Assembly (NCBI RefSeq): GCF_900177415.1
Contig: NZ_FXAF01000006.1
Span: forward strand, 892,001-956,000
DNA: 64,000 nucleotides
Origin: Xaviernesmea oryzae
GTDB lineage: Bacteria; Pseudomonadota; Alphaproteobacteria; Rhizobiales; Rhizobiaceae
Direction: 5' to 3'
The notes under the pieces are model-generated. The model worked only from the letters and a program-made list of their open reading frames with translations. It was not told the origin of the DNA and did no database searches. The first letter of the stretch is position 1. The number at the start of each line of letters is the position of its first letter. Position numbers and translations under genes: made by a program. Of the stretch, positions 8,113 to 52,441 are shown one piece after another.

Positions 8113-8250
8113 GATATTCCCCAGTGGGTTCGTTCCGGGTCGTCCCGGAGTTTTGGCCCGATATGGGGGAGGTCGTCCTCGCATCCCTGAGATAGGTGCT
8201 TTCGCACTCCTCGGCAAGCCGCGGCAGGGCATAGCTGCCATGCACACGAA

Positions 8251-16234: not shown

Positions 16235-16265
16235 AAAAAAACCGGCCGCGAAAGCAGACCGGTTT
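16235..16265 (-). terminator. Intrinsic terminator in the metZ leader
   Basis: On the minus strand AAACCGG and CCGGTTT (plus-strand 16259-16265 and 16239-16245) form a 7-bp stem closed by a 13-base loop and followed by a T-run (16241-16235). It sits directly downstream of the SAM-II aptamer and 24 bases upstream of the metZ start, so it is the likely expression platform for attenuation. Confidence 0.75.
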
Positions 16266-16269
16266 GGCA

Positions 16270-16329
16270 CCCGGTCCTTTTAGCCACTTGTTTAACGTGG
16301 CTGCAAGCCGACCGGCCAAATCACCACGG
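16270..16329 (-). promoter_or_regulatory. SAM-II (metA-type) riboswitch
   Basis: Read on the minus strand, the leader has the alphaproteobacterial SAM-II pattern: CGTGGTGATTTGG, then GGCTTGCAGCCACG, TTAAACAAG, GTGGCTAAAAGG and ACCGG. CGTGG (16328-16324) can pair with CCACG (16300-16296), and CCGGTC (16315-16310) with GACCGG (16276-16271), giving the nested/pseudoknotted layout of this class. A terminator follows. A possible promoter, TTGACG (16367-16362) with 17-bp spacing to TAAGGC, lies upstream. S-adenosylmethionine binding should lower metZ expression. Confidence 0.85.
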
Positions 16330-16412
16330 GATAAAGCTGCCTTACGCCTGCTTGCGGCTTGCGTCAATGGCTTGCATTTGGTTTTGTCGCGCTGAAATAC
16401 GGAAGAGACATG

Positions 16413-47582: not shown

Positions 47583-49799
47583 ATGAGCACCTACAGGAAC
47601 TTCACCGTCGAAACCGATGCGGACGGCATTGCTCTCGTCACCTGGGACATGCCGGAAAAGTCGATGAACGTCTTCACCATGGAGGTGATGGACGAGATCG
47701 AAAAGATCGTCGATGCCACGGTGGCAGACAGCGCCGTCAAGGGCGTCGTCTTCACCTCCGGCAAGTCCTCCTTCTCGGGCGGCGCCGATCTCACCATGAT
47801 CAAGTCCATGTTCTCCATGCTGGAGGAGGAGAAGGCGAGGGATCCGCAGGGCGCGGCGAAGAAGCTCTTCGATGCCGCCGGCCGGATGTCCTGGCTGTGG
47901 CGCAAGATCGAGACGAACGGCAAGCCCTGGGTCTCGGCGATCAACGGCACCTGCATGGGCGGCGCCTTCGAGCTTTCGCTCGCCTGCCACGGCCGCGTCG
48001 CCGCCAGTTCCAAGTCGGTCAAGATAGCGCTCCCGGAAGTGAAAGTGGGCATCTTCCCCGGCGCCGGCGGCACCCAGCGCGTGCCGCGGCTCGCGAACGC
48101 GCAGGATGCCCTGCAGATGATGACCACCGGCCAGAATCTCACCGCCCAGCGCGCCAAGGCCATGGGCCTCGTCCATCAGGTGGTCGAGCCGGCCGAGCTG
48201 ATCAACGCGGCGAAGCAGATGATCAAGGACGGTCTGAAGCCCGTCGCCCCGTGGGACGAGAAGGGTTTCAAGGCCCCCGGCGGCGGCGTCTGGACGCCCG
48301 CCGCGGCGCAGCTCTTCCCGGCCGCCCCCGCCATCCTGCGGCGCGAAACCGGCGGCAATTATCCGGGCGCGCTCGCCATCCTCAAATGCGTCTATGAGGG
48401 CCTGCAGCTCCCCTTCGATACGGCGTTGAAGGTCGAGCAGCGCTATTTCACCGAAATCCTGCAGACCACCGAAGCCTTCTCGATGATCCGCTCGCTCTTC
48501 GTCTCCATGCAGGAGCTCGGCAAGGGCGCCCGCCGCCCGGCCGGCGTCCCGAAGGCGGAGTTCAGACACGTGGGCGTCGTCGGGGCCGGCTTCATGGGCG
48601 CCTCGATCGCCTATGTCACGGCCGCCGCCGGCATTCCCGTCACCCTCATCGACCAGACCCAGGAAGCCGCCGACAAGGGCAAGTCCGTCTCCGAAAAGCT
48701 GGTGGCCGACAGTATCGGTAAGGGCCGCATGACCAAGGAGGAGGGCGAAAAGCTCCTCTCCCTCATCACTCCCACGCCGGATTATTCCGCCCTCTCCGAT
48801 GCGGGCTTCGTCGTCGAAGCGGTCTTCGAGGACCGTGCGGTCAAGAAGGCGGTCATCGAACAGGTGGAGGCGGTCATCCCGCAGACCGCTATCTTCGCCT
48901 CCAACACCTCGACCCTGCCGATCACGGGTCTCGCGGAAAACTCCAGGCGCCCGGACCAGTTCATCGGCGTGCATTTCTTCTCGCCGGTCGAGAAGATGAT
49001 GCTGACCGAGGTGATCCTCGGCGAAAAATCGGGCGACAGGGCGCTCGCCACGGCGCTGGATTACGTCGCGGCGATCAGGAAGACCCCGATCGTCGTCAAC
49101 GATACGCGCGGCTTCTATGTTAACCGCTGCGTCTTCCGCTACATCAACGAAGCCTACGACATGCTGATCGAGGGCGTGCCGGCGGCGATGATCGAGAACG
49201 CCGCCAAGATGGCCGGCATGCCGGTCGGCCCGCTGTCCTTGAACGATGAGGTCGCCGTCGATCTCTCCCAGAAGATCATGAAGGCCTCGATCGCCGATCT
49301 CGGCCCTAACGCCGTCAAGATTGAGCACATGGCGCTCATCGACCAGATGGTCGATGTCTTCGACCGCCGCGGCCGCAAGAACGGCAAGGGTTTCTACGAA
49401 TACCCGGCCAAACCCGCCAAGAAATATCTCTGGCCGGAACTGAAGACCCTCTACCCGCAGAAGAAGGCGGAAGAGATCGACGTCAACACGCTGAAGCAGC
49501 GCCTGCTGGCGACGATCGCCCTCGAAGCCGCCCGCACCATGGAAGAAGGCATCGTGACGGACCCCCGCGAAGCCGATGTCGGCTCCATCCTGGGCTTCGG
49601 CTTCGCCCCCTATACCGGCGGCACGCTCTCCTACATCGACGGCATGGGCGTGAAGAATTTTGTCGCGCTCTGTGAAAAGCTCGCCTCGGCTTACGGCGAC
49701 CACTTCAAGCCGACGGAGCTTTTGAAGGACATGGCGGCGAAGGGCGAGACGTTCTACGGAAGGTTCGATCCGTATGGAGAGGGGAAGAGGGCGGCGTGA
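47583..49799 (+). CDS. Bifunctional enoyl-CoA hydratase / 3-hydroxyacyl-CoA dehydrogenase (FadJ/FadB type)
   Basis: Two middle steps of beta-oxidation in one 738-residue chain. The N-terminal crotonase part (about 1-290) has VFTSGKSSFSGGADLTMIK and the oxyanion segment INGTCMGGAFELSLACHGR, with LPEVKVGIFPGAGGTQR. The dehydrogenase part starts with the Rossmann motif GVVGAGFMGASIAYV near residue 333, then FASNTSTLPITGLA, FIGVHFFSPVEKM and NDTRGFYVNR. ATG 47583 follows AGGAAATCCCGCC. Size and order fit the alpha subunit of the fatty-acid oxidation complex, with the thiolase encoded upstream. Confidence 0.95.
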   Translation: MSTYRNFTVETDADGIALVTWDMPEKSMNVFTMEVMDEIEKIVDATVADSAVKGVVFTSGKSSFSGGADLTMIKSMFSMLEEEKARDPQGAAKKLFDAAGRMSWLWRKIETNGKPWVSAINGTCMGGAFELSLACHGRVAASSKSVKIALPEVKVGIFPGAGGTQRVPRLANAQDALQMMTTGQNLTAQRAKAMGLVHQVVEPAELINAAKQMIKDGLKPVAPWDEKGFKAPGGGVWTPAAAQLFPAAPAILRRETGGNYPGALAILKCVYEGLQLPFDTALKVEQRYFTEILQTTEAFSMIRSLFVSMQELGKGARRPAGVPKAEFRHVGVVGAGFMGASIAYVTAAAGIPVTLIDQTQEAADKGKSVSEKLVADSIGKGRMTKEEGEKLLSLITPTPDYSALSDAGFVVEAVFEDRAVKKAVIEQVEAVIPQTAIFASNTSTLPITGLAENSRRPDQFIGVHFFSPVEKMMLTEVILGEKSGDRALATALDYVAAIRKTPIVVNDTRGFYVNRCVFRYINEAYDMLIEGVPAAMIENAAKMAGMPVGPLSLNDEVAVDLSQKIMKASIADLGPNAVKIEHMALIDQMVDVFDRRGRKNGKGFYEYPAKPAKKYLWPELKTLYPQKKAEEIDVNTLKQRLLATIALEAARTMEEGIVTDPREADVGSILGFGFAPYTGGTLSYIDGMGVKNFVALCEKLASAYGDHFKPTELLKDMAAKGETFYGRFDPYGEGKRAA

Positions 49800-49838
49800 G
49801 CCGCCCCAGCCTGATGACAAACCGTGCTTCCTGCTCGG

Positions 49839-49915
49839 CGTCATCCTCGGCCTTGTGCCGAGGATCTATAAACGCCCATGGTTTGCATATGCTCGGGACA
49901 GGCCCGAGCATGACG
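49839..49915. repeat. Palindromic unit bounded by CGTCAT/ATGACG
   Basis: Two hairpins inside inverted ends: ATCCTCGG (49843-49850) with CCGAGGAT (49858-49865), and ATGCTCGGG (49889-49897) with CCCGAGCAT (49903-49911), all perfect. The ends CGTCAT (49839-49844) and ATGACG (49910-49915) are also inverted. Similar 'CGTCATCCTCGGGCTTG...' units are widespread between genes in alphaproteobacteria. Confidence 0.75.
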
Positions 49916-50007
49916 ATCAGTTGCAAAGATGCCGCCCGGTGATGCGGATGGCGGAGGGCGAGGCGGTCGAGCTTTTCCCGATGATCTTCGGTTTCCGCCC
50001 CCTCTGT

Positions 50008-50170
50008 CCTGCCGGACATCTCCCCCACAGGTGGGGAGATCACAAGCAGCATGATCTTCCCATCTCATTTAGCGTCCGCCGGATAGAACGGTTGATTGTT
50101 TGAGAAAGCCGGCACCCCCATCCGATCTCCCCCCTTGAGGGGGAGATGCCCGGCAGGGCAGAGGGGGGTG
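50008..50170. repeat. Mosaic palindromic repeat, second type, copy E
   Basis: The left end CCCCCTCTGTCCTGCCGGAC, followed by ATCTCCCCCACAGGTGGGGAGAT, faces the right end GATCTCCCCCCTTGAGGGGG, then AGATGCCCGGCAGGGCAGAG and GGGG. The two ends are inverted copies, with about 80 bp of unrelated sequence between them. Shares its left end with copy D. Confidence 0.75.
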
Positions 50171-50332
50171 TCGCCAGGCAAATCAATACCTTGGCGGAAA
50201 TCGGCAGCAAAAATCGCTTCTATTCATCCCCGCCCCCTCGACCCGTGCCTACAATCCGCTTGCTTCCGTCGCCGGAGTGTTTCGCGAGACGTTCGCGGGC
50301 AGGCGGGAGCCGGCGCTTCCATCGGAACCGTA

Positions 50333-50590
50333 ACGTGCGGGGACGGTGGAAGAGGTGAAAGCCATGGAGAGTTCGTCGAAAGACGGGCTTCCCTATCAAG
50401 CCTCCCCCTGGTCGCCAGGCCAGGTTCGGTTGAGCCGTGCAAGTGGCGTAAATGCCACGCAGCGAGGCGAGATGATCACCTGTAGGGGCCGGAAGCCCCG
50501 AGAGAACGCCGAAGGCCACGCGAATGCGGAGCCACATACTAAAATCTACTGAGGTTCCGCATTCGTGTGGGCTCTCCGAAGAAAAAAGCA
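50333..50590 (+). other. Structured region of unknown nature (possible RNA or group II intron relic)
   Basis: This segment carries several foldable elements: CTGG/CCAG around TCG (50408-50418), GTGGC/GCCAC around GTAAAT (50442-50457), GGGGC/GCCCC around CGGAA (50484-50498), and CGAATGCGGA (about 50521-50530) with TCCGCATTCG (50555-50564). GCCACA (50531-50536) can also pair with TGTGGGC (50566-50572), giving a pseudoknot order. The 5' part (GTGCGGGG at 50335, GAGGTGAAAGCC, GTCGAAAGACGGG, GTGCAAGTGGC) recalls domain I of bacterial group II introns, but no domain V or reverse transcriptase is seen. Identity is open: relic intron, non-coding RNA or repeat. Confidence 0.3.
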
Positions 50591-50707
50591 GATCCGGTTC
50601 GCCGGGAAGGGAAATCAGAACCGAACACGGAGCCGGAACCGGCCGCGTGAACGAAACCGCGCGCCGTCGGAACCGTGCCGGAAAAGAGGATCAAGGAGAA
50701 AGGAACG

Positions 50708-51103
50708 ATGGCGAGAAGCGAAGAAGAACGCCGCCGCATCATCGAAGAAGAGAACAGGCAGCCCTATCTGCCGTGGATGACCTGGGGCGAGTTCAGCGCG
50801 TTGCCGGAACGTCAGAAATCTCGTGAACTGCAGAAGTTCAGCCAATATGTCACGACCTATCTCGGCTTCTGGAAGACCTGCGATCTTTCATCCTGCCGCC
50901 GGGCCAAGGCCTGCAGGGGCTTTCTCACGGAGGCGCAATATCGCGCCGAGCCGCGTTACCACGACAGCTTTCCGCCCTGTGTCGGTCCTGGCGGGGCGCG
51001 CCAGCCGGAGGTGCTGGCGGGCATGAGGCGGCTCGGCGGCAGGGAGGAAGACGATGAGCCGAAATACGACGGCAGGCAGCGGGCAGATCGCGAGGCGTGG
51101 TAG
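50708..51103 (+). CDS. Small cysteine-motif hypothetical protein
   Basis: A 131-residue hydrophilic protein from ATG 50708, which has AAGGAGAAAGGAACG upstream. The N-terminal third is charged (EEERRRIIEEEN) and carries PWMTWGEFSALP. The centre has a pattern of four cysteines, WKTCDLSSCRRAKACRG then PPCVGPGG, that is C-x4-C-x5-C followed by one more Cys about 24 residues on, suitable for a metal or structural role. Similar small proteins occur in alphaproteobacteria without assigned function. No signal peptide. It stands alone between the structured region and a convergent enzyme gene. Confidence 0.78.
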   Translation: MARSEEERRRIIEEENRQPYLPWMTWGEFSALPERQKSRELQKFSQYVTTYLGFWKTCDLSSCRRAKACRGFLTEAQYRAEPRYHDSFPPCVGPGGARQPEVLAGMRRLGGREEDDEPKYDGRQRADREAW

Positions 51104-51145
51104 CCTGTTCCGGACCGCCCCATCAGTGCCTCGCGCGAACAGCCC

Positions 51146-52441
51146 TCACGCCTTGTCGAGAGCCATCGTCAGGTCCGCGATCAGGTCGTCCGGGTGCTCG
51201 ATGCCGATCGAAAGCCGGATCGTGCTGTCGAGCACGCCGATCCGCTCCCGCACCTCCGCCGGCACGCCGGAATGGGTCATGGTCGCCGGGTGGCTCGCAA
51301 GCGATTCCGTGCCGCCGAGGCTCACCGCCAGCTTGAGGATCGACAGCGCGTTCAGGAAGCGGAAGGAGGCCGGCTGCCCGCCCTCTATGTCGCCCCGGAT
51401 ATCGAAAGAGAAGGTCGAGCCGCCGCCCGTGCATTGCCGGGCGAAGACCCGTCCGGCCGGCGAGCCGGGATCCTCGAAAGGAAGGTAATGCAGCTTCTTC
51501 ACCTTCGGATGGTCCCGCAGGAAGGCGGCGACGGCCGCCGCATTGGCGTTCGCCTTCTCCATGCGGATCGACAGCGTCTCCAGGCTGCGGCCGAGCATCC
51601 AGCAGGAATGCGGGTCGAGCTGCGTGCCGATCGCGCCCCGCAGCGCCTTCACCTGCCGGACGACCGCCTTGGAGCCGAGCGCGGCGCCGGCGATCAGGTC
51701 CGAATGGCCGCCGACATATTTGGTCAGCGAATAGAGCGAGATGTCGGCCCCGTGCTCGATCGGCCGCTGGAAGACCGGCCCGAGCAGCGTGTTGTCGCAG
51801 GCGATGACCGGCGTGTGCCCCTGCCGCCTGCCGATCGTCTCCGCCACCTGCCGCATCAGCGCGATGTCCACGAGGCTGTTGGTAGGGTTCGCCGGCGTTT
51901 CGATGAGGATCACGGAGACGCGGCCCTTCGCCATCGCCTCTTCCGCGGCCGCGGTGACGGACTGTTCGCTGACGCCGTCCGCAAAGCCCACCGCCGCGAC
52001 GCCGAGGTTGAGGAAGGTTTTCGCAAGCAGCGTCTCGGTGCCCCCGTAGAGCGGCTGGGAGTGAAGGACGCTGTCGCCGGGCCGTACGAAGGTCATCAGC
52101 GTCGTGGCGATCGCCGACATGCCGGAGGAAAAGAGCGCGCAGCTTTCCGTCTGCTCGAAGACCGCCATGCGGTCCTCGACGATCTCGCTGTTCGGGTGGT
52201 TGAAGCGGGAATAGACGAGGCCCGCCCCGGTTCCGGGCGGCGGCTCCCGGCGTCCGGCGACGAAATCGAAGAAGTCGCGGCCCTCTTCGGCCGACTTGAA
52301 GACGAAGGTGGAGGTGAGGAAGACCGGCGGCTTCACGGCCCCTTCGGAAAGCTCCGGGTCGTAGCCGTAGTTCAGCATCTGCGTTTCGGGGTGGAGCCTG
52401 TGATTGCCGATATGCGTCTTGGAAGGATGCGGCGCGGTCAT
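51146..52441 (-). CDS. Cystathionine gamma-synthase-family PLP enzyme
   Basis: A 431-residue Cys/Met-metabolism enzyme. Motifs: [62 protein letters not shown], Schiff-base Lys241 in [17 protein letters not shown], and [17 protein letters not shown]. It is clearly distinct from the MetZ of this window (different active-site loop, longer). Family members include methionine gamma-lyase, cystathionine gamma-lyase and synthase; the reaction cannot be fixed from sequence alone. It is divergent from the mannitol dehydrogenase-type gene, with 195 bp between. Confidence 0.88.

Follow-up and report, generated by a model that had tools for sequence, protein, structure and literature searches.

Positions 50333–50590 of the window, by which we mean the whole 64,000-nucleotide stretch of DNA analysed, are the 3′ part of a larger RNA gene. 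A sequence-only reading had marked this segment as structured, and the segment is real but too narrow, its limits cutting a conserved RNA that runs from approximately 50262, a start set by the first helix, and leaving out an extra hairpin on the 3′ side. The gene measures approximately 320–390 nt and comprises 50262–50579 plus this hairpin; its transcription start and 3′ end are placed by inference from the sequence. The features of the locus are as follows.

50000–50175, no strand given: palindromic repeat, presumably of the type named RIME; a neighbour outside the RNA
50225–50255, + strand: promoter-like block ahead of the RNA, with the box CATCCCCGCC at 50225–50234 and a −10-like TACAAT at 50250–50255
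50262–50579, + strand: structured RNA core of 15 helices and 86 consensus pairs, based on the 51-copy alignment A1, RNAalifold, covariation and G-U excess
50262–50310, + strand: 5′ domain, with helix 1 (50262–50273/50298–50310) and helix 2 (50283–50287/50293–50297)
50311–50511, + strand: central domain, closed by helix 3 (50311–50315/50507–50511) with helices 4–14 inside
50513–50573, + strand: long 3′ hairpin (helix 15), with 19 counted pairs and an A+T-rich variable loop, including CGAATGCGGA/TCCGCATTCG
50626–50649, + strand: second 3′ hairpin, terminator-like (CACGGAGCCGGAACCGGCCGCGTG), read off the sequence and the tails of 67 copies
50708–51103, + strand: gene for a four-cysteine protein of 131 aa, a candidate partner of the RNA

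The hairpins described in the sequence-only reading are found within this larger fold: GTGGC/GCCAC at 50443–50447/50454–50458, GGGGC/GCCCC within 50485–50499, and the longer pair of CGAATGCGGA (50521–50530) with TCCGCATTCG (50556–50565). The unpaired GGAGTGTTT between helices 1 and 2 is near-invariant, and the 5′ domain is the part conserved best in divergent members of the family. Upstream, a −10-like hexamer taken from a preset list occurs in 61 of 65 aligned regions and a strict CATCCCC-type box in 46, at the expected place in 40 of these; boxes similar to CATCCCCGCC also precede the divergent members. This box lies about where a −35 element belongs and resembles no −35 sequence known to us. 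Downstream, a rough CACGG...GCGTG hairpin pattern fits the tails of 23 of the 67 copies and is thus common rather than universal.

The edges of homology were placed in 117 pairs of same-genome copies, taken from seven genomes. On the left, homology begins between −9 and +1 in 52 pairs, on a scale with 50230 as zero; it begins 10–50 nt further up in 11, more than 50 nt further up in 49 and inside the element in 5. Genome G020 contributes 28 of the 49, and in it a RIME-like repeat lies upstream of eight of the nine RNA copies fetched. On the same scale, the right edge lies at 345–395 in 88 of the 117 pairs.

A covarying fold on the + strand

The + strand of 50320–50600 folds to −124.3 kcal/mol against −98.1 ± 4.8 kcal/mol for its shuffles (z −5.4; 0/200 as good), and the − strand gives z −3.3, likewise with none of 200 shuffles as good. 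Because no shuffle matches its folding energy, the structure of this stretch exceeds chance. For covariation, 51 of the 67 distinct full-length copies were aligned by sequence rather than fitted to the structure, and 33 of the 86 consensus pairs carry double-sided changes, with at least one such pair in each of helices 3–14. Chance structure, which the sequence-only reading had kept as its null outcome, is not supported by these results. Double-sided cells number 234 against 56.5 expected, a value reached by none of 500 shuffles of a kind that ignores relatedness; paired cells amount to 97.8% against 35–45% in every slid control, which keeps relatedness but favours a structure derived from the same sequences. 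Cells with G-U (579) far outnumber those with A-C (27), and therefore it is the + strand that is the RNA. The comparison across copies thus shows a conserved predicted RNA fold on the + strand, with compensatory changes, in agreement with the non-coding RNA that had been among the options of the sequence-only reading.

The same reading proposed a pseudoknot from GCCACA (50531–50536) and TGTGGGC (50566–50572). Both motifs are present and their A-B-A′-B′ order is a permissible reading, but the pseudoknot itself finds no support across the 51 copies. GCCAC occurs twice, at 50515–50519 and 50531–50535, and pairing of TGTGG with the first occurrence only lengthens the long hairpin. The five pairs of this nested extension (50516–50520/50566–50570) are each kept in 49–51 of the 51 copies and include one double-sided change. 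The pseudoknot was rejected because it shows no double-sided change, its pair 50536–50566 forms in 21 copies and is unpaired in 30 (the other five pairs are mostly kept), and the nested extension is retained. The duplicated GCCAC is itself conserved, and an alternative conformer may exist.

A coding function was also rejected. In the window, translation from a tempting AGGTG...ATG start would yield 62 aa, but frame and stops vary among copies. Nine of the 67 copies have no recognisable start, the other 58, counted from a fixed anchor, fall 39/13/6 into the frames and stay open for 6 to 158 codons, and no open reading frame is shared by all; the leftover bias to one frame is attributed to close relatedness.

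No family of Rfam 15 matches the element, either at gathering thresholds or with permissive filters (E ≤ 5) across 49000–52000, where the sole match is a weak, unrelated microRNA at 49941–50016 (E 4.4). Fourteen loci holding relatives gave no match over the element at E ≤ 2. At one of them (L103), sub-threshold WsnRNA46 matches upstream of the RNA, on both strands, look like a palindromic repeat.

Dispersed copies and their hosts

Searched with 50300–50720, the window's own genome holds five copies, the other four being 89–98% identical over approximately 280 nt, so that the repeat family also suggested by the sequence-only reading describes the element well. Conservation extends beyond the strain. 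A match occurs in 42 of 57 genomes of the genus, with 0 to 12 matches per genome (fragments counted), and diverged members are found elsewhere in Rhizobiaceae, where hosts among the matches listed are Neorhizobium, 'Rhizobium' species, Pararhizobium, Pseudorhizobium and Endobacterium. In Rhizobiaceae samples searched by DNA, 26 of 394 genomes match, and some of these matches (L115, L117–L119) are short chance hits to ordinary protein-coding DNA. The covariance model R1 finds the RNA in 14 of 247 family genomes and 8 of 109 genera, and we regard this as the better count because of the chance coding hits among the DNA matches. An order-wide sample gave matches in three of 249 genomes: two belong to Rhizobiaceae, and the third, at E 0.009, does not. 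Among open-access papers, titles and the opening parts of abstracts held no description of the RNA, nor did the portions of PMC11109978 and PMC8632094 reached by search terms.

Wider flanks were fetched for 61 copies, that of the window among them, which is less than half of the matched places in the genus, and flanking genes were called by a simple codon-usage script. No copy overlaps a called gene; 32 lie between convergent genes, 17 have flanks oriented +/+, nine −/+ and two −/−, and one is at a contig end. Several locations are syntenic across genomes. The element does not appear to be phage or plasmid cargo: phages have no match, viral contigs contain no exact pattern match, and the two plasmid records with a match are both Neorhizobium replicons of more than 1.2 Mb. 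In sum, comparison shows that the element recurs at several scattered places per genome, mostly behind a similar promoter-like block and with no conserved frame.

Copies within a genome are on average 91.3% identical (80 pairs); the average is 76.7% for copies that occupy the window's locus in different genomes (45 pairs) and 79.3% for the remaining copy pairs (1150 pairs). Since the window-locus set includes the most distant genomes, the comparison was repeated within five genomes. In this like-for-like set the paralogues of the locus copy average above its orthologues in all five, and in four of the five every paralogue exceeds the best orthologue. This likeness could come from gene conversion or from recent duplication. 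Homogenisation is not general, because within-genome pairs in G002 and G012 are just 74–75% alike.

RIME repeats, a name used in PMC2573895, are intergenic repeats of rhizobia. The RNA is likewise intergenic and dispersed, but the RIME-like element is a separate repeat with many more matches in this and related genomes: 24 of the 61 copies have it in the 800 nt upstream, and 36 are free of it over 800 nt in both directions. The two elements may travel or recombine together. As a separate observation, among loci L041, L042, L092 and L098 the genes to the right of the RNA in L042 are found to the left and inverted in L092 and L098, which suggests that RNA copies may have served as rearrangement breakpoints.

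The four-cysteine protein and its coupling to the RNA

The gene downstream of the RNA encodes an arginine-rich protein in which C58, C63, C69 and C91 are invariant across 28 aligned proteins, as is the CRRA of the motif C-x4-CRRA-x2-C; a matching stretch with a stop (L347) and one that is split (L352) were left out of this alignment. The protein is possibly metal-binding. It has no match in Pfam, NCBIfam, PADLOC or PHROG and none among PDB sequences at E ≤ 10. AlphaFold2 predicts a small helical model with a mean pLDDT of 84.4 for the best of five and 64–76 for the others, for which Foldseek returned a best E of 8.3 and the VIA comparison no Z ≥ 2 among 10 chains. The median dN/dS of 0.42 (229 pairs with dS < 1.5) is moderate and indicates a protein that evolves fairly fast. 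In the 28 aligned genes the start codon lies 62–172 nt past the long hairpin.

The RNA lies upstream on the same strand at 28 of the 30 protein loci fetched (36 matches listed), and at the two loci that have no adjacent RNA (L362 and L363) stop codons interrupt the matching part. The damaged matches at L347 and L352 nevertheless have adjacent RNA, and damaged or partial matches also occur in G054 and G010. Across the genus the protein is found in 32 of 42 RNA-positive and in none of 15 RNA-negative genomes (Fisher p 1.5e-7, uncorrected for shared ancestry). All 15 stay negative with R1 and the protein profile; one of them, G038, is 78% complete. Ten of the 42 RNA-positive genomes have no protein even by profile. 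In three protein-negative genomes (G005, G016 and G023) the RNA matches are all weak or short, and at least six genomes (G003, G004, G007, G029, G041 and G056) have strong RNA matches and no protein gene, with five full RNA copies in G007. In such genomes either other proteins serve the RNA or it has a function of its own. Counted by RNA copy, 13 of the 61 with fetched flanks have the protein gene.

Beyond the genus, the tandem order recurs in one other genus (G442, G229 and G158, at L100, L102 and L103) and in G330 (L105), where RNA (2284650–2284973) and protein (2284316–2284591) share a strand. In G058 (L111) a protein relative starts approximately 400 nt beyond a segment whose match is limited to the 5′ portion of the RNA (nhmmer E 1.9e-9) and which R1 does not match. 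The protein is absent from the fetched flanks of L104, L106–L110, L112–L114 and other RNA loci in other genera. Six sampled family genomes in which R1 finds no RNA (G105, G112, G244, G262, G264 and G274) have weak protein relatives (E 1e-6 to 7e-4), and therefore the coupling is not strict outside the genus. Relatives with the CRRA motif were seen in family genomes at L278–L280 and L283; of these four genomes G105, G274 and G264 gave no RNA match, and G183 has its RNA on a different contig.

A candidate ribonucleoprotein and its rivals

It is very probable that the RNA belongs to a real, trans-acting family of structured RNAs, and we put its functional partnership with the four-cysteine protein at about even chances. 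Since no single gene has most of the examined copies as its leader, we infer that each copy is transcribed on its own and that the RNA acts in trans. The explanation towards which we lean, by a little over even chances, is that the locus encodes a large, structured non-coding RNA which belongs to a new class in Rhizobiaceae and forms a ribonucleoprotein (RNP) with the four-cysteine protein. The ancestral gene would have had the arrangement of the window, an RNA followed by the small arginine-rich protein; the protein would bind the RNA to form the RNP, extra solo copies would raise RNA dosage, and gene conversion would keep the copies alike. The RNP is our working model because the tandem arrangement, together with a protein that within the genus occurs only alongside the RNA, matches what an excerpt of PMC9723947 describes for OLE RNA and OapA, a tandem of RNA and small protein gene in which the protein is present only where the RNA is. 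The strongest form of this proposal, a new bacterial RNP with an ornate, largely homogenised multi-gene RNA, a protein encoded alongside, confinement to Rhizobiaceae and a role outside known RNA classes, we hold more tentatively and at somewhat less than even chances.

Improbable in our judgement is a cis-regulatory leader, riboswitch-like or autoregulated by the protein, that controls the four-cysteine gene and whose other copies are dispersed leftovers. The same-strand order at 28 of 30 loci and the purine-rich, ribosome-binding-like sequences ahead of most protein gene starts are what such a leader predicts, but the gene is found at just 13 of 61 copies and 32 of the 61 sit between convergent genes, for which reason cis action was rejected as the general function. 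Solo copies, moreover, retain the fold and the promoter-like block and are mostly homogenised, and the genomes with strong RNA matches and no gene fit such a leader poorly.

Still less likely is a type III-like toxin–antitoxin system, in which the structured RNA would neutralise the small protein and solo copies would be spare antidotes. Systems of the ToxIN type consist of an RNA gene, a terminator-like hairpin and a small protein gene. Here too a promoter-like block, the RNA and a terminator-like 3′ hairpin precede a small protein gene, and the one-sided distribution in the genus (protein without RNA in 0/15 genomes, RNA without protein in 10/42) fits this reading, as do the stops in the two protein matches that have no adjacent RNA. 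Against this, L347 and L352 are damaged despite adjacent RNA, the RNA has no repeated antitoxin units, and the protein has no library match, including to any endoribonuclease of known family. A widely shared ornate RNA would also be unusual as an antitoxin. The same asymmetry of protein and RNA is reported, in the portion of PMC9723947 cited above, for OLE RNA and OapA.

We give a similarly low probability to a non-autonomous, MITE-like mobile element whose structure serves transposition. The copies are dispersed and variable in number, empty sites exist (one convergent orthologous site has the RNA gene in four of 18 genomes that share the flank), and a RIME-like repeat lies upstream of many. 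The G-U bias is nonetheless typical of RNA, the promoter-like block and the syntenic copies across genomes point away from transposition, phage and exact viral-contig matches are absent, and inspection by eye of one aligned site, with flanks too diverged for certainty, showed no terminal inverted repeats or target duplication.

The group II intron relic proposed by the sequence-only reading, on a superficial likeness of GTGCGGGG...GAGGTGAAAGCC to an intron start, can be given almost no weight: the fold begins approximately 70 nt before the 5′ end proposed for the intron, 50333, and covaries as a different structure, the GTGCGG at that end makes up the loop and the 3′ arm of a hairpin inside the fold (helix 5, 50328–50340), and Rfam gives no intron match. 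The three neighbouring proteins scanned, which are part of the flanking reading frames, include no reverse transcriptase.

Few bacterial RNAs as large and complex as the candidate RNP's RNA are known, and several are still without a function. Like OLE RNA, the present RNA is large, has a conserved fold and is predicted to have its own promoter; within the genus its protein gene is likewise in tandem and confined to RNA-bearing genomes. OLE is described in excerpt as an RNA of approximately 600 nt from Gram-positive extremophiles and anaerobes and OapA (PMC9723947) as a membrane protein, whereas here the RNA has approximately 320–390 nt and several gene copies, the hosts are Rhizobiaceae and the partner is a four-cysteine protein. 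There is no Rfam match to OLE, and at most the RNA would work like such a pair rather than belong to it. GOLLD and ROOL are further large ornate bacterial RNAs, for which part of PMC12286853 reports homo-oligomers; the RNA described here has no Rfam match to either.

The RNA occurs in cultured soil and plant-associated bacteria and comes with a testable candidate protein partner, and the series from no matches to twelve (fragments counted) across one genus is a natural one for genetics. Its multi-gene, mostly homogenised layout recalls that of rRNA genes, which suggests that dosage may matter. Elsewhere in the window, two riboswitch matches lie on the − strand, a Guanidine-II (mini-ykkC) riboswitch at 8135–8184, just above its gathering score, and a SAM-alpha riboswitch at 16259–16337.
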